Of a stretch of DNA of 40,161 nucleotides, positions 2,307-37,543 are shown one piece after another. Within the stretch, counting starts at the first letter, position 1; each line of letters opens with the position of its first letter. The stretch covers positions 29,016 through 69,176 of the forward strand of contig PMAT01000106.1 in NCBI GenBank assembly GCA_003152695.1, read 5' to 3'. The notes below the pieces were generated by a model. That model did no database searches, was not told the origin of the DNA, and saw nothing but the letters and a program-made list of their open reading frames with translations. The position numbers and the translations under genes were made by a program. The DNA is from Acidobacteriaceae bacterium. Lineage in GTDB: Bacteria > Acidobacteriota > Terriglobia > Terriglobales > Acidobacteriaceae.

Positions 2307-3758
<1,452 letters not shown>

Positions 3759-3760
3759 TC

Positions 3761-3904
3761 AGTGCTTAGTGGCTAGTGGTCAGTGGCTAGTTAACCCCGT
3801 TCCACCAACATCCCACATTGTGGGACGCCACTTGAAATACGCATAAATCTCAGCGCCCGCAGCAGCGGGTTTGACTATCCACTAGCCACTAATCACCAGC
3901 CACT
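3761..3904. repeat. Inverted heptamer arrays around a 15-bp palindrome (locus A)
   Basis: The left arm (3761-3795) is five exact 7-bp units (AGTGCTT, AGTGGCT, AGTGGTC, AGTTAAC types). The right arm (3873-3904), read on the minus strand, has AGTGGCT (twice), GGTGATT and AGTGGAT in exact 7-bp phase. The core holds TCCCACATTGTGGGA. The element fills the atpG-atpD gap. Confidence 0.8.
3811..3825. promoter_or_regulatory. 15-bp palindrome in the atpG-atpD gap
   Basis: TCCCACATTGTGGGA, the reverse complement of 29703-29717. A further conserved 16-bp block lies at 3838-3853 (13 of 16 bases shared with 29718-29733). On the minus strand the block and palindrome are upstream of atpD, as at the second locus. 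Confidence 0.55.
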
Positions 3905-3907
3905 GCG

Positions 3908-4942
3908 TTACAACGCAGCTGCGCCGCTCACAATCTCGATAATCTCTTTGGTGATCGCGGCCTGGCGTGCACGGTTCATGGTGAGCGTCAGGGAATCGAT
4001 CACGTCGTTGGCGTTGTTGCTCGCCGAATCCATTGCCGTCATGCGGGCGGCATGCTCGGCGGCCACGGACTCGAGCATACCTTCAAAGATTTCGAAGGCT
4101 ACGTAACGCGGCAGCAATCCGGCAAAAAGCTCCTCAGGTGACTGCTCGTAAATGTAATCCACCGGAGCAGTAGCAAATTTGGTAGCTTCTTTTTCAAACT
4201 CCGTCGGCTCCGGCTCCTTCAAGCTGACGCCCGCCGTGCGGGCCGCTTCCGCCATGCGCTGCCGGTCTCCCAATTCAAACTCCTCGGTCAGAGCGACTTC
4301 ACGACGGCCCAATTCCTGCACCGGAAGAATTCGTTGTGCGATCAGGCGCTGTGAGATCACCGACTTGAACTCGTTGAAGATCAAGTAAACCGAATCGATC
4401 CGCTCATCCCGATAAGCCTTGGCAATATGGTCAGCAATTTCGGACACGGCCTCGTAATCCACTTTAGCTAGCAGGTTCAAGTGCTCGCCGATGACTTGGA
4501 CTTGCCCCTTGCGCTCCTCGCCAGCCTTCCCGACGGGATAGCGCCGGCGCAAAAAGTCTCGCCCCTTACGCCCAACGGCCACGATGTCGATGTTCTTGTC
4601 TTTGAAATGGTCCAGGAACCCCAAGGCCGCTTTCAGGACGTTAGAATTGAACGCGCCCGCCAAGCCTCGATCTCCGGTCACCAGGACGAGCAGGACGTTC
4701 TTTTCGGGACGAATGGCCAACAGTGGATTCCACGGCTCGCCGGTGGCTGGATTTACCAGTTCGGCCCGGCCCACAGTCGAGGCCAACACGTTTGCCAGCA
4801 TGTGCGCGTAAGCGCGAGACGCTAACGCCCGCTCTTGCGCACGGCGCAACTTAGCCGCCGAAACCATTTTCATGGCCTTGGTGATCTGCCGCGTGTTCTT
4901 CACGCTGCGAATACGCCGTCGGATGTCGCGTACGTTCGCCAT
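3908..4942 (-). CDS. atpG: F1 ATP synthase gamma subunit, with an internal insertion
   Basis: Gamma is the rotating shaft of F1. The N-terminal helix (MANVRDIRRRIRSVKNTRQITKAM in part) and the C-terminal helix (NRARQAAITKEIIEIVSGA) are canonical. At 344 residues it is some 50 longer than the common length of about 290. The excess lies after the segment QRLIAQRILPV, as a charged stretch of roughly residues 215-260 (EFELGDRQRMAEAARTAGV, EPEPTEFEKEATKF) before YIYEQSPEELFAGLLPRYV. It lies 6 bp after atpA, consistent with translational coupling. Confidence 0.96.
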   Translation of the reverse strand: MANVRDIRRRIRSVKNTRQITKAMKMVSAAKLRRAQERALASRAYAHMLANVLASTVGRAELVNPATGEPWNPLLAIRPEKNVLLVLVTGDRGLAGAFNSNVLKAALGFLDHFKDKNIDIVAVGRKGRDFLRRRYPVGKAGEERKGQVQVIGEHLNLLAKVDYEAVSEIADHIAKAYRDERIDSVYLIFNEFKSVISQRLIAQRILPVQELGRREVALTEEFELGDRQRMAEAARTAGVSLKEPEPTEFEKEATKFATAPVDYIYEQSPEELFAGLLPRYVAFEIFEGMLESVAAEHAARMTAMDSASNNANDVIDSLTLTMNRARQAAITKEIIEIVSGAAAL

Positions 4943-22870: not shown

Positions 22871-22898
22871 TGCCTGACTAGTTTAGCAGCGAATGAGG

Positions 22899-23043
22899 AG
22901 TCAGTTGCCAGTAGCCAGTTGCAAAAACCTGCCGCTGGAAATTGCGTGGGCAGCATAGGGGTCCTTCGACTCGCCCGCCGTGCGGGCTCGTTCAGGATGA
23001 CAGAGCCTATATAGCAAACTGGCAACTGACTACTGGCTACTGC
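22899..23043. repeat. Inverted heptamer arrays around a REP-like core (locus B)
   Basis: The left arm (22903-22923) is three 7-bp units (AGTTGCC, AGTAGCC, AGTTGCA). The right arm (23014-23042), read on the minus strand, is four units (AGTAGCC, AGTAGTC, AGTTGCC, AGTTTGC). Between them, 22957-23001 is a REP-like palindrome (GGGGTCCTTCGAC...TTCAGGATGAC). It lies between the divergent-free ends of mfd (5' side) and the porin gene (3' side). Confidence 0.75.
22957..23001. repeat. REP-like palindrome
   Basis: Starts AGGGGTCCTTCGACTCGCCC and ends GCTCGTTCAGGATGAC, with an internal CCCGC/GCGGG stem. Related copies are at 31118-31151, 37592-37621 and 37762-37814. Confidence 0.7.
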
Positions 23044-23047
23044 TTCG

Positions 23048-24499
23048 TCAGAATTCCAAGTGCAGCCGCAGCCCGGGCACGGTCACTGGCCCGCGGACGC
23101 GGTTATATCCGGGATCGTTGATGTGTTGCAGGTCGAAGGCGAAGAACGCACCGCGCCAGATATGCGTGGTGTAGAAAGCTTCCTCGATGGTTTCGCGGCC
23201 ATAGGTGAGGCCGCCATCCCCCAGAAGAAATCCCAGGCCGCCGTCGGCCAGATATTGCTGATGCGCTTTCGAGATGCCGCTGGAGACGAACGCCACTCCC
23301 GCGCGGTCGAGGCTGCGATGCCAGCGCGTTCCCTTCGCATACGCGCCCAATTCCGCACCTTCGTTATCTTCCGTGTAGGCAAACGACTCGTGTTGTCCTT
23401 CGTTCCATCCCCAGCGGCCGAACGCCCAAATGTCGCTCGACACCTTCTGCTCGAAATTCAATCCGAAGCCATACTTGATTGTTCCTTGCTTGCGAGTGAC
23501 GGTGACGTCGGGCGTGGGTGTGACATGGTCCAGATAAAGCGTCACCGCCTGCTCGTAATCGCCCATGTTGGCGTGATTGACGTAGTTCAGAATGCGGATG
23601 GTCGTGTCTTTGTTCTTCAGCAGCTTCGGCCGCAGTTCCAGTTCAATGTTCTCGGCGCGAGCACGGGCCACATCGGCATCGAGTGCGGGGCCGTTTGCGA
23701 TCTTCGGCATCAACGTCTCCGCAAAGCGCAGGCCCCAGTTGCGGTCTTCATAGTCGAAAATGGCGCCGACGGTGTAGCCGCGGGTATCGGCCGCGTAATC
23801 ATAGGCGCCATTGTTGCCGATGACCCAGTTCAGAAACTGGTAGTGGCTGTCAGTGCCGCCGACGTTCAGGTCGAAGAAGTCGGCCAGAGAAAACTTTCCG
23901 AAGCGCATTTCCAATCGCCGCACCGGGACTTGGGTTGGAAGTGACAACGCGGTGCGCTCCACTTCGATCTTTTCCTTCGACAGCGGAACGACCTGCTCCA
24001 TCATCAGCCGCGCAATATACGGCGCGGTCCCGATGGAAGGATTACGCACCACGTCAAGATTGGTGAAGCCGGCCAACCCCAAGGCGCCACTGATCCCGCC
24101 CCAACCCGCCTCCTCGACGTCGAGATAAGCCATGGTGTTGGGGTTGAACTCGTAGCCGCTGAAGAAGGTCAGCACCCGCGAGGTCGCAGTCTCGGCCTTG
24201 TTGTGGAGACTATTGGTGCCACTGTAAAGCGCGTAGAAGTCGCCGTGCGCCTGGAAGACGATGTTTGCCTGCCCGGAAAACCACCACTTCGAGGTCTGCG
24301 AGTGCTCGAAGAAAGTTGCCTTGGGATCGGGGGCTGGCGCTTCCGGCGCACCGGCGGTCGAGCCATCCTGCGCGAAACAGCTTGCGAGCATGGCCGTCAG
24401 TACCAAGCCAAGCATCGCCAGTCTCCGACGGATACCCTGGGGAAGCCAGCGGCTTTCTGTCGGAGGCCGAAATGGTCGAACTGGAAGATGATCGCGCAT
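23048..24499 (-). CDS. Carbohydrate-selective porin (OprB family)
   Basis: The protein begins with a basic stretch and a hydrophobic export signal (RRRLAMLGLVLTAMLASCFAQ in part), then about 440 residues of amphipathic strands ending in LRLHLEF, with the C-terminal Phe used for outer-membrane insertion. Segments such as WWFSGQANIVFQAHGDF, RFGKFSLADFFDLN, WGLRFAETL, DIWAFGRWGW and YTTHIWRGAFFAFDLQHINDPGYN are typical of OprB-like porins that carry sugars or other small solutes. The start is unsure: ATG 24499 has GGAG only 2 bp upstream, GTG 24517 is further out, and ATG 24415 has GGAG at a good 7-bp distance but loses the basic n-region. Confidence 0.85.
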   Translation of the reverse strand: MRDHLPVRPFRPPTESRWLPQGIRRRLAMLGLVLTAMLASCFAQDGSTAGAPEAPAPDPKATFFEHSQTSKWWFSGQANIVFQAHGDFYALYSGTNSLHNKAETATSRVLTFFSGYEFNPNTMAYLDVEEAGWGGISGALGLAGFTNLDVVRNPSIGTAPYIARLMMEQVVPLSKEKIEVERTALSLPTQVPVRRLEMRFGKFSLADFFDLNVGGTDSHYQFLNWVIGNNGAYDYAADTRGYTVGAIFDYEDRNWGLRFAETLMPKIANGPALDADVARARAENIELELRPKLLKNKDTTIRILNYVNHANMGDYEQAVTLYLDHVTPTPDVTVTRKQGTIKYGFGLNFEQKVSSDIWAFGRWGWNEGQHESFAYTEDNEGAELGAYAKGTRWHRSLDRAGVAFVSSGISKAHQQYLADGGLGFLLGDGGLTYGRETIEEAFYTTHIWRGAFFAFDLQHINDPGYNRVRGPVTVPGLRLHLEF

Positions 24500-24504
24500 G
24501 GCTC

Positions 24505-24747
24505 CTATTCCCCGCACATTGTAAGGGACCGCGTCGGTCCCCCTTCGCGAGCGAATCTTGAAGTTTTACACTTCTCTATTACAGCAGGGTTACAGACTTC
24601 CGAGAGGCCGGGCGTTCCGACCGTCTGATTCTCGTCCGGCCTGTGAAGCGACCAACTTGATGCTAGTGGCTTGAACTGATCTCCCGTCGCGACCCAATTG
24701 AGCCGGAGGATGCGTCCGGATTCGTTCAGGACATGGTTGTTGAGCAT
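24505..24747 (-). CDS. Possible small protein or leader upstream of the porin gene
   Basis: An 80-codon frame starts at an ATG with a strong AGGGAGG 6 bp upstream and stops 5 bp before the porin start, its stop codon overlapping the porin's GGAG. The N-terminal half (MLNNHVLNESGRILRLNWVA) looks protein-like; the C-terminal half is less convincing. No family is recognised. It could be a genuine small gene, a translated leader of the porin gene, or chance. Confidence 0.35.
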   Translation of the reverse strand: MLNNHVLNESGRILRLNWVATGDQFKPLASSWSLHRPDENQTVGTPGLSEVCNPAVIEKCKTSRFAREGGPTRSLTMCGE

Positions 24748-31063: not shown

Positions 31064-31217
31064 AGTGAACCAGTAGCCAGCGTCAGTTGCCAGTTGTCAG
31101 CGGGCTACAGCACCTTTGTCATCCTGAACGAGCGCAGTGTCGAAGGACCCTTTGTTACCCGCACACCTTCTATCGGCAGGTTTTTCCAACTGGCAACCGG
31201 CCACTGGCAACTGTACT
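31064..31217. repeat. Inverted heptamer arrays around a REP-like core (locus C)
   Basis: The left arm (31064-31105) has units such as AGTAGCC, AGTTGCC and AGTTGTC, with one 8-bp and one 6-bp spacing. The right arm (31186-31217), read on the minus strand, has AGTTGCC, AGTGGCC and GGTTGCC. The core at 31118-31151 is a REP-like palindrome. The layout is the same as at 22899-23043. It lies between htpX and the next plus-strand gene. Confidence 0.75.
31118..31151. repeat. REP-like palindrome
   Basis: Begins GTCATCCTGAACGAGCGC and ends GTCGAAGGACCC; the same family as 22957-23001 but in the opposite orientation. Confidence 0.7.
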
Positions 31218-35460: not shown

Positions 35461-35790
35461 GTGCCATCCCACAATTTCGGCACCCAGGGCCGGGCGTTTC
35501 TGCGGGTTGCGGGCCGCAAGACTGGGGAGAATCGTTGGATACGGGCCTTTTACCGGGGAAGCAGCGTCACCCTCGGCAGCGTAGGCCGGTTGCTGCATGT
35601 GCTCTGGCTGGAGGTAGCGGGACTATTTTTCCTGGTGCTTGCGGTGGTTGGGGGCGGAGCTGCCATACGCGAATACCATCGTTACGCTCATGGCGCCACT
35701 GGAGTCGGCAAGCCGCTCTTGGCAGCCGCATTCGCGCTGGCTTTCTTGTACTTCGGCGTGAGTTCGTTCGCCCGGTCGCGAAGAAGATAG
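35461..35790 (+). CDS. Small membrane protein of unknown function
   Basis: The GTG at 35461, preceded by GCGAAAGGT, begins a 109-residue protein. A basic N-terminal part (RAFLRVAGRKTGENRWIRAFYRG) is followed by two hydrophobic helices (about residues 47-64, VAGLFFLVLAVVGGGAA, and 84-101, LLAAAFALAFLYFGVSSF) and a basic end, ARSRRR. No family is recognised. Its stop codon TAG lies at the very start of the heptamer array at 35789, with mutA following beyond the array. Confidence 0.6.
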   Translation: MPSHNFGTQGRAFLRVAGRKTGENRWIRAFYRGSSVTLGSVGRLLHVLWLEVAGLFFLVLAVVGGGAAIREYHRYAHGATGVGKPLLAAAFALAFLYFGVSSFARSRRR

Positions 35791-35914
35791 TTTTGAGTTT
35801 CGAGTTTCGAGTTGACGTTGAGTGTTCTCGCATCGTTGCCTTTAACTTCTCGCTCCTACTGGAAACCGGAAACTTCAGACTGAGATTAGACGGTTCGACT
35901 GGAAACTGGAAACT
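35789..35914. repeat. Inverted heptamer arrays (locus D)
   Basis: The left arm (35789-35827) has 7-bp units AGTTTTG, AGTTTCG (twice) and AGTTGAC. The right arm (35858-35914), read on the minus strand, has AGTTTCC (three times) and GGTTTCC with some longer spacings. The arms flank about 30 bp. The element fills the gap between the small membrane protein gene and mutA and ends 3 bp before the mutA start. Confidence 0.7.
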
Positions 35915-35917
35915 GAG

Positions 35918-37543
35918 ATGCCCGAAAACAAACATAAAGGGCCGGTGGCTACCAAGCTGGCGCCCGCGCAAGAAACCTCCTCCCACATCAGCGTTCATCC
36001 GCTGTACACGCCAGCCGACTTGGAGGCTTGGGATTACGACCGCGATCTCAATTTCCCCGGGCAGTTCCCCTATACCCGCGGCGTGCAAGCCACGATGTAT
36101 CGCGGTCGGCTGTGGACCATGCGGCAGTACGCCGGCATGGGCGACGCCGAAGAATCGAACCGCCGCTACAAGTACCTGCTGAGCAACGGCACCACCGGAT
36201 TGAGCGTGGCCTTCGACCTGCCGACGCAGATCGGGCTCGACTCCGACAACCCCCTCGCTACGGGAGAGGTGGGAAAGGTCGGCGTTGCCATCGATTCCAT
36301 CGAGGACATGATGCGGCTCTTCGACGGCATCAATCTGGAGAAGATCTCTACGTCGATGACGATCAACGCCACCGCATCCATTTTGCTGGCGCTTTACATC
36401 GTGACGGCACGGCGCACCGGCCGCGATGTGCGCAAGCTTTCCGGCACAGTGCAAAACGACGTGCTGAAGGAATACATCGCGCGCGGCACTTATATTTATC
36501 CGCCCGCGCAGGCCATGCGCATCATCACCGACATTTTTTCCTACGCCCACGAGAATGTGCCCGAGTGGAACACGATTTCCATTTCCGGTTACCACATGCG
36601 CGAAGCCGGATGCACGGCGGTGCAGGAAGTGGCCTTCACCCTGGCCAATGGCATCAGTTATGTGCAGGCGGCCATTGATGCGGGACTGGGCGTGGACGAC
36701 TTTGCGCCGCGCCTGTCGTTCTTCTTCAATGCGCACAGCAATTTTCTGGAGGAAGTGGCGAAGTTCCGCGCTGCCCGCCGCATGTGGGCACGCATCATGC
36801 GCGACCATTTCGGCGCCAAGAACCCGAAATCGCTGATGCTGCGTTTCCACACGCAAACGGCAGGCTCGACGCTGACCGCGCAGCAGCCTGAGAACAACAT
36901 CGTCCGCACCGCATTGCAAGCCATGGCAGCGGTCCTGGGCGGGACGCAATCGCTGCACACCAACTCGTTTGACGAAGCTCTGGCGTTGCCCACCGAACAG
37001 TCGGCGCGCATCGCCCTCCGGACCCAGCAGATCGTCGCCTACGAATCAGGCGCGGCGCAGACCGTCGATCCGCTGGCGGGTTCGTACTACATCGAATCGC
37101 TGACCAACCAGATCGAAACCCAGGCGCGCGAATACCTCGACAAGATCGACGCCATGGGCGGCACCTTGAAGGCGATTGAGCGCGGATTCATTCAGCAGGA
37201 AATCCAAAACGCCGCGTACGAGTATCAGCGGTCTGTGGACCGGCTGCAGGCAATCGTCGTAGGCGTCAATGCCTTCGAACAGGAGAAAGAAAAGCCGATT
37301 CCGCTGCTACACATGGACGAGTCTCTGGAACGCAGGCAGGTGGAGCGTTTGCGGGCCGTGCGCGCCAAGCGCGATCCGGCGAAATGGCAGGCGGCGCTGA
37401 GGAAGGTGGAAGACACGGCGCGGGGCACCGGCAACTTGATGCCGCCGATTGTGGAAGCGGTCGAGGCCAACGCCACGGTCGGCGAAATCTCCGATGCCAT
37501 GCGCCACGTGTACGGCGAGTATCACGAGACGGTGGTGATTTAA
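35918..37543 (+). CDS. mutA: Methylmalonyl-CoA mutase large subunit, catalytic domain only
   Basis: This is the TIM-barrel part of a B12-dependent acyl-CoA mutase that interconverts methylmalonyl-CoA and succinyl-CoA. The 541 residues end without the C-terminal cobalamin-binding domain, so a separate small subunit is expected; it is not in the window. Arg64 and Tyr71 ([14 protein letters not shown]) and Arg189 ([11 protein letters not shown]) align, with a constant offset of 18, to Arg82, Tyr89 and Arg207 of the Propionibacterium enzyme. Isobutyryl-CoA mutases have Phe and Gln at the last two. That favours methylmalonyl-CoA as substrate. Other family segments are [15 protein letters not shown] and [30 protein letters not shown] in part. 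The leader is the heptamer element. Confidence 0.95.

Follow-up and report, generated by a model that had tools for sequence, protein, structure and literature searches.

Facing arrays of heptanucleotide repeats at intercistronic positions in an Acidobacteriaceae genome and its relatives

Repeat elements at four intergenic loci

The DNA analysed here, which we call the window, is a stretch of 40,161 nucleotides from an Acidobacteriaceae bacterium, taken from contig C4 (positions 29016–69176) of a 4.50 Mb genome in 141 contigs (G000). By its AtpG protein the closest named records (best identity 64%) carry the label Acidobacteria, in many cases Terriglobia or Terriglobales. At four places in it, starting at 3761, 22899, 31064 and 35789, the initial annotation had described 7 bp units standing in two opposite arms, and an array scan finds arms at each of the four. 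The first element lies between two minus-strand genes which, from their translations, we take to be atpD (2307–3752) and atpG (3908–4942). Its left arm (3754–3795, plus strand) and right arm (3870–3904, minus strand), both of the AGTGGCT type, enclose a core at 3796–3869, and the end of the right arm adjoins the atpG stop codon. For the whole element (3760–3905) the predicted fold has a minimum free energy (MFE) z-score of −5.2.

At the second locus a left arm of three units (22896–22923, plus strand, CAGTTGC/CAGTAGC type) faces a right arm of four (23014–23041, minus strand; units counted by eye), the end of which adjoins the stop codon of an open reading frame at 23048–24517 on the minus strand. 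The core between them (22924–23013) is recognisable in two relatives, G002 and G006. Part of this core, at about 22950–23004, is a dispersed repeat of some 50 bp (GGGTCCTTCGA...AGGATGAC) that is also found elsewhere in the genome (L310–L321 and others); about 30 of the 48 matches obtained in a sequence search are confined to this part of the core.

The element at 31064 is the most degenerate of the four, with a left arm (31085–31105, plus strand) whose side retains two clean units, a core at 31106–31184 and a right heptamer arm at 31185–31212 on the minus strand. Aligned in reverse orientation with the element at 22899 it is 72% identical over 134 bp. The call of the gene finder at this locus is at odds with our own reading of the flanking genes as divergent. 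At the fourth locus the left arm (35789–35816, plus strand, AGTTTCG type), which the array scan starts one unit earlier at 35782, is overlapped by the stop codon TAG (35788–35790) of the open reading frame at 35461–35790. The right side is split into two short minus-strand arrays of the AGTTTCC type, an inner one at 35854–35881 and an outer one at 35894–35914 that ends 3 bp short of the ATG at 35918.

Enrichment of heptamers across genomes

A genome-wide scan confirms what was noted in the window, since the heptamers stand far above controls read backwards: the four-unit AGTNNYY pattern AGTNNYYAGTNNYYAGTNNYYAGT has 93 exact matches in the 4.50 Mb genome and 2 when read backwards. The sevenfold phase is likewise borne out, as seven is the sole strongly enriched period besides multiples of the codon. 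At a score of at least 11 we find 40 arrays of period 7, and 0, 4, 4, 0 and 1 at periods 5, 8, 10, 11 and 13 respectively, in a 440 kb sample made up of the window, C89:1–200000, C100:1–120000 and C132:1–80000, the last three being long contigs picked from hit lists, as were C8, C27, C68, C84 and C55 for other parts of the work.

When one matrix of seven positions is fitted to 126 period-7 arrays from 14 genomes, phase and strand being left free, the best solution out of 60 starts is YAGYNNY. The corresponding pattern, YAGYNNYYAGYNNYYAGYNNYYAGY, has 301 matches in G000 and 3 backwards. It has at least one match in 107 of 150 genomes searched (G000 included), with wide differences between genera, and zero matches in the other 43. 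In a set of 50 genomes, reached by way of named loci, the pattern is present in 33; the 17 that are match-free include two of Archangium (L298, L304), one of Gracilibacter (L300), one of Nitrospirae (L303) and several of Acidobacteria. Geobacter argillaceus (L299, G196) has 3 matches versus 25 in the backwards control. This control is also high in G015 (74 backwards versus 48 real matches), G126 (128 versus 279), G154 (123 versus 128) and G164 (97 versus 158), and for this reason we reject a purely sequence-defined motif. As the backwards pattern, YGAYYNN, is frequent in these four genomes and in G196, further heptamer families are suggested, and it is probable that other heptamer types exist in the genomes in which the backwards control is high.

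The counts of placement given below rest on a looser weight-matrix scan, which in the 838 kb sampled from G000 yields 142 arrays and, backwards, 31, and over 14 genomes a total of 171 and 74 respectively, so that the weak arrays among them are partly due to chance. For G126, of which 120 kb were scanned in this way, there are more backwards (23) than real arrays (17), and these arrays are retained in the pooled counts. Almost all of the arrays in the G000 sample (135/142) lie outside called genes, and several unit types occur side by side in this one genome.

Polarity and placement relative to genes

Where consecutive intergenic arrays are separated by less than 250 bp, they predominantly face each other. 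There are 31 inward, 2 outward and 11 same-direction neighbours in the 838 kb of G000, and 45, 1 and 10 respectively over 14 genomes, a set that overlaps the G000 sample; the inverted layout first described at the window loci is thus genome-wide. The YAG strand is directed away from the nearest gene in 79 of 92 arrays in G000 and in 107 of 118 over the 14 genomes. Where arrays so oriented are on the stop side they lie within 10 bp of the stop codon in 39 of 43 cases (53/60 over the 14 genomes). Placement on the start side is looser, with 14 of 36 arrays (21/47) within 10 bp of a start as called by our home-made codon-usage gene finder, which overlooks short genes and may set starts wrongly.

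The kind of gap between genes also matters. Over the 14 genomes, where the stretches taken from relatives mostly surround the atp locus, which is an array site in its own right, or known hits in the case of G119, G126 and G059, an array is present in 4/69 divergent gaps of 90–500 bp, compared with 55/291 co-directional and 14/50 convergent ones (divergent versus the rest, p=0.003). The divergent deficit is weaker in G000 taken by itself, where the counts are 7/65, 46/213 and 7/45 respectively.

Matching and predicted folding of the arms

The initial annotation suggested that the two arms of a locus evolve together. In G000 the identity between arms, taken in the best 7 bp register, is 0.713 within loci versus 0.567 between loci, and it is 0.665 versus 0.42 when only the two positions of the unit that vary most are compared (permutation maximum 0.625, n=200; 14 loci). 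Sharing of unit type beyond chance is thus upheld, but this does not extend to all pairs: over 14 genomes 43 of 54 arm pairs have an identity of at least 0.6 and 11 fall below it, some of the latter appearing by eye to be nested or hybrid. Nor is the order of units more than weakly matched. The order match is 0.667 versus 0.648 after shuffling, a value reached in 0 of 300 shuffles, for 111 pairs that include orthologous loci and so are not independent; for the 31 pairs of G000 alone the observed match is equalled or exceeded in 41 of 300 shuffles and so is not significant. Because of this weak match in unit order, strict unit-by-unit complementarity of the arms is rejected.

The suggestion that the arms could form an imperfect hairpin agrees with RNA folding of 32 two-arm elements, for which the median MFE z-score is −3.8 and 23 elements fall below −2. 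If pairing were required of the transcribed strand, G-U mismatches should outnumber A-C mismatches, although a C-to-T bias of the coding strand would mimic this. A first set shows such an excess (44:24, p=0.02), but significance is lost when the set is enlarged (51:38, p=0.20) and is not reached in G000 (24:13, p=0.10).

Variation between related genomes

The element at 22899 is present in G002 and G006 within surroundings that are 93% and 91% identical to those in G000. Counted by eye, its left arm has 3 units in G000, 7 in G002 and 5 in G006, and its right arm 4, 5 and 3 respectively, so that array copy number differs between sister species in steps of 7 bp.

In the atpG–atpD spacer heptamers are found in all nine members of the genus examined, and the unit types, assigned by eye, differ between them. 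Both arms are AGTGGCT-like in G000 and G007 and of the CAGCYNT type in G001, G002 and G004; G003, G006 and G008 have hybrids in which an AGGGGCT-like arm is combined with a TAGCTCT-like arm, and in G005 AGTTTC occurs with TAGC. A similar situation is seen by eye in the spacer between the genes for ribosomal proteins S3 and L16, where G000, G001, G005, G006 and G008 have AGTTGYC-like arms and G002 has an AGTGGMT element, the entire element having been replaced between similar outermost units. Sister species thus keep the layout at orthologous spacers but have one unit type in place of another. In a tree of atpG, G000 groups with G003, but the atpG–atpD spacer of G003 resembles that of G006 and G008 (the G007 sequence is fragmentary); the histories of gene and spacer disagree, and recombination within or near the spacer is possible.

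A wider survey of the atpG–atpD spacer parsed 32 of 50 cases, the other 18 being dropped as the boundary was not recognised. Beyond the genus some spacers contain such an element, some are only 8–26 bp long (G019, G023, G024, G025, G027 and G054), and there are longer ones, for example in G015, G026, G028 and G034, in which no heptamers are evident by eye. By eye, the distant acidobacterium L295 has facing GGGATTY arrays in this spacer, a unit near the GGGNATC of Xanthomonas, and in L270, another genome of the Terriglobia, the facing arrays appear to have a unit of roughly 10 bp (CACGAATGAA-like). The script-parsed spacers of L251, L252 and L259 are 298–700 bp in length and may hold small extra reading frames.

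Concentration in the ribosomal protein operon

The segment C55:36001–55700 is a ribosomal protein operon as judged by Pfam matches to L3, L4, S3, L5, L6, SecY, Adk and RpoA. It contains 24 arrays in 19.7 kb versus 118 in the 818 kb sampled elsewhere in G000, and 15 of its 24 co-directional gaps have an array versus 46 of 381 elsewhere, an enrichment that is biased because this segment was picked for its dense hits. For the relatives we used 20 regions selected by orthology of L4. Six of these (G001, G002, G005, G006, G014 and G036) have 20–29 arrays per 20 kb, with backwards controls of 1–6; G008 has 8 arrays in 6 kb, and thirteen regions have 3–15. Compared with other stretches of the same genome, the operon has 28 versus 2.5 arrays per 20 kb in G006, 27 versus 3.7 in G002, 20 versus 2 in G005 and 23 versus 2 in G014; the excess is smaller in G033 (10 versus 2.8) and absent in G012 (9 versus 9) and G029 (5 versus 4). 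Beyond these seven genomes a background is available for two, from 5 kb in G001 and 10 kb in G008.

The second densest place sampled is at 46–51 kb of C84, behind pheS–pheT among genes for zapA, lgt and a pseudouridine synthase. With the ribosomal protein operon left out, codon adaptation is higher in co-directional gene pairs that have an array between them than in those that do not (0.671 versus 0.642; 46 versus 335 pairs, p=3e-4).

Interpretation

We propose, with a probability of roughly 0.45, that these are transcribed intercistronic stem-loop elements, REP-like in position, which are kept by 7 bp slippage and by exchange between loci. Each element consists of two facing YAGYNNY arrays around a variable core and extends from just behind a stop codon toward the start of the next gene; co-directional gaps contain most of them, and their density is highest in the ribosomal protein operon. 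The model builds on the anatomy, polarity and placement seen above, on the type shared in most arm pairs, on the 7 bp copy steps and on the replacement of unit types. Slippage by 7 bp would make the arrays grow and shrink, and short recombination events would exchange unit types between loci. From the position of the elements inside apparent operons we infer that they are transcribed; their arms would then pair in the polycistronic mRNA into an imperfect stem, which may act as REPs do by separating cistrons and shielding the 3′ end of the upstream message. Many unit sequences could serve, because in the proposed model the arms need only match in type. A role as an intrinsic (Rho-independent) terminator is rejected, as the elements sit inside apparent operons and lack a T tract: TTTT occurs within 12 nt downstream at 2 of 22 co-directional two-arm loci and at 1 of 22 in the upstream control.

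Several results count against a stem-loop, namely the hybrids in G003, G006 and G008, the 11 arm pairs of low identity, the weak unit order and the non-significant G-U test, as well as the weaker divergent deficit in G000, the loose start side, the backwards controls, the 43 match-free genomes, the sparse operons of other relatives and the operons of G012 and G029 that are no denser than elsewhere. It is because of the hybrids, the weak match in unit order and the failed strand test that neutral or self-maintaining repeats are the main and a close rival, to which we give somewhat less credence than to the stem-loop. Here hairpin-templated strand switching and 7 bp slippage would generate repeats that spread by exchange and accumulate in tolerant spacers without a selected function, their enrichment in expressed operons arising from transcription-associated mutation. 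The 7 bp copy-number steps, the whole-element replacement in G002 at the S3–L16 spacer (judged by eye) and the many relatives without arrays agree with this, but it does not readily account for YAGYNNY being common to several genera when the remaining positions of the unit are free to vary, for the strict polarity, or for heptamers kept at atpG–atpD in 9/9 genus members despite the change of unit.

A candidate protein that would recognise YAG at intervals of 7 nt in RNA or DNA (CTR on the opposite strand), with facing arrays bringing about a looped complex, is in our judgement improbable. The near-constant A and G beside variable NN positions and the facing of sites at variable spacing are as expected for such a platform, and IHF/HU sites have been proposed for similar paired tandem repeats of Geobacter (Aklujkar 2009, PMC2700814), but the atpG–atpD spacer of L295 has, by eye, the identical layout with GGGATTY units that fall outside the motif. 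Less probable still, and very much so, is a non-autonomous mobile element (a MITE or REP/BIME) with the arrays as its terminal inverted repeats. The shared arms and core of the pair at 22899 and 31064, with their 72% identity, speak for it, and the placement near stop codons recalls REPs. However, this pair is the sole alignment longer than 65 bp among 31 inward elements of the 838 kb G000 sample (five other pairs align over 46–65 bp among the alignments of 45 bp and more), so the conserved body expected of a mobile element, which the initial annotation had also considered, is not supported, and the same holds for a MITE with many conserved copies. The Y1 transposase domain (Y1_Tnp, PF01797) is found in 126 of the 150 genomes searched and at E<=0.001 not in G000; the array-rich G037 and G076 also lack it, whereas G010, G124 and G136 have it together with zero array matches. 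As transposase presence and arrays dissociate across genomes in this way, we reject dependence on a RAYT as a present-day requirement.

Returning to the stem-loop reading, a broader proposal, which we regard as doubtful though less so than a binding platform, is that facing heptamer arrays form one widespread intercistronic class, to be recognised not by sequence but by a geometry in which units recur every 7 bp, arms point inward and match in type, and the element extends from stop to start. From one lineage to another the unit would change (YAGYNNY, GGGATTY and the published GGGAATC) but the element would keep its position; such elements would be most common in strongly expressed operons, those for ribosomal proteins among them, and would act on the polycistronic mRNA. 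Since the facing layout occurs in Acidobacteria without G-tracts, these bacteria separate geometry from quadruplex formation, and if the class is real the quadruplexes invoked for Xanthomonas would be incidental. That several genomes crowd these elements into their ribosomal protein operons would matter for the processing and translation of those mRNAs. As unit type has changed at orthologous spacers of sister species, models of slippage, exchange and pairing become testable.

Comparison with known repeat systems

Heptamers are familiar from the STRR sequences of heterocystous cyanobacteria and from the tRNA-Leu intron of Nostoc. We found no report of arrays such as these in Acidobacteria in a literature search that covered subscription journals thinly, and the comparisons below draw on parts of each source cited. 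Tandem heptamers are the most abundant intergenic repeats detected by Mori (2018, PMC6344855) over a wide range of prokaryotes, with no clear functional clue given in the part of the paper considered here. The view that no inverted two-arm form is known is wrong, as convergent heptamer pairs occur in Xanthomonas (Rehm 2015, PMC4692102) and paired repeats on opposite strands in Geobacter (Aklujkar 2009, PMC2700814).

The latter, in Geobacter metallireducens, are tandem repeats of 7–9 nt that are mostly paired, with units GTTGCTYN, TCTCCGTS[Y] and the heptamer MTYCTGA; classes 1 and 2 lie on opposite strands at variable distance and are interpreted as IHF/HU sites and putative sites of a global regulator (PMC2700814). 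They differ from the arrays described here in their units and in being described, in the portion of that paper used here, for one genome. REP/BIME sequences (PMC3733652) and the stem-loops found after stop codons (Petrillo 2006, PMC1590033) are extragenic, located just behind stops, and more frequent in convergent than in divergent spacers; judged against the parts of these sources covered, our arrays are unlike REP/BIME in having neither a fixed palindrome nor a GTAG-tagged family.

The TAACTGA direct repeats of Beggiatoaceae, cyanobacteria and Bacteroidetes (MacGregor 2015, PMC4679880) are an exact unit situated mainly right before start codons, also inside ribosomal protein operons, with translation genes over-represented behind them. 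Their reverse complement fits YAGYNNY and they mostly read toward the start codon, which is the direction of our start-side arms; unlike our arrays they are nearly all direct rather than facing, with one inverted among 170 sets in the part of the report compared. TAACTGA dimers are absent from the 838 kb of G000.

The closest likeness is to the repeats of Xanthomonas (Rehm 2015, PMC4692102), the relevant parts of which describe mostly intergenic tandem heptamers, GGGAATC/GGGNATC in Xanthomonas and GGGGAYT in Nostoc, with 70 close convergent pairs in Xcc, 75 in Xac and few in Nostoc. They lie near stops on the coding strand and near starts on the non-coding strand, are rare between divergent ORFs and are mostly on transcripts (24/183 not assigned); length varies between species, the single or pair type is usually preserved, and 83% stay in place. 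The acidobacterial arrays share with them the intergenic tandem heptamers, the close convergent pairs, the placement at stops and starts and the scarcity between divergent genes. The Xanthomonas unit is G-rich and is interpreted as quadruplex-forming, a reading that we reject for the acidobacterial arrays, as 0 of 142 in the 838 kb of G000 have the four GGG or CCC tracts needed; the same sample has 0 GGGAATC dimers. Unlike the Xanthomonas heptamers described in these parts of the paper, the arrays thus have no G-tract quadruplex unit, occur as several types in one genome and, at orthologous spacers, change unit type between sister species. In these three respects they add to the known heptamers considered here.
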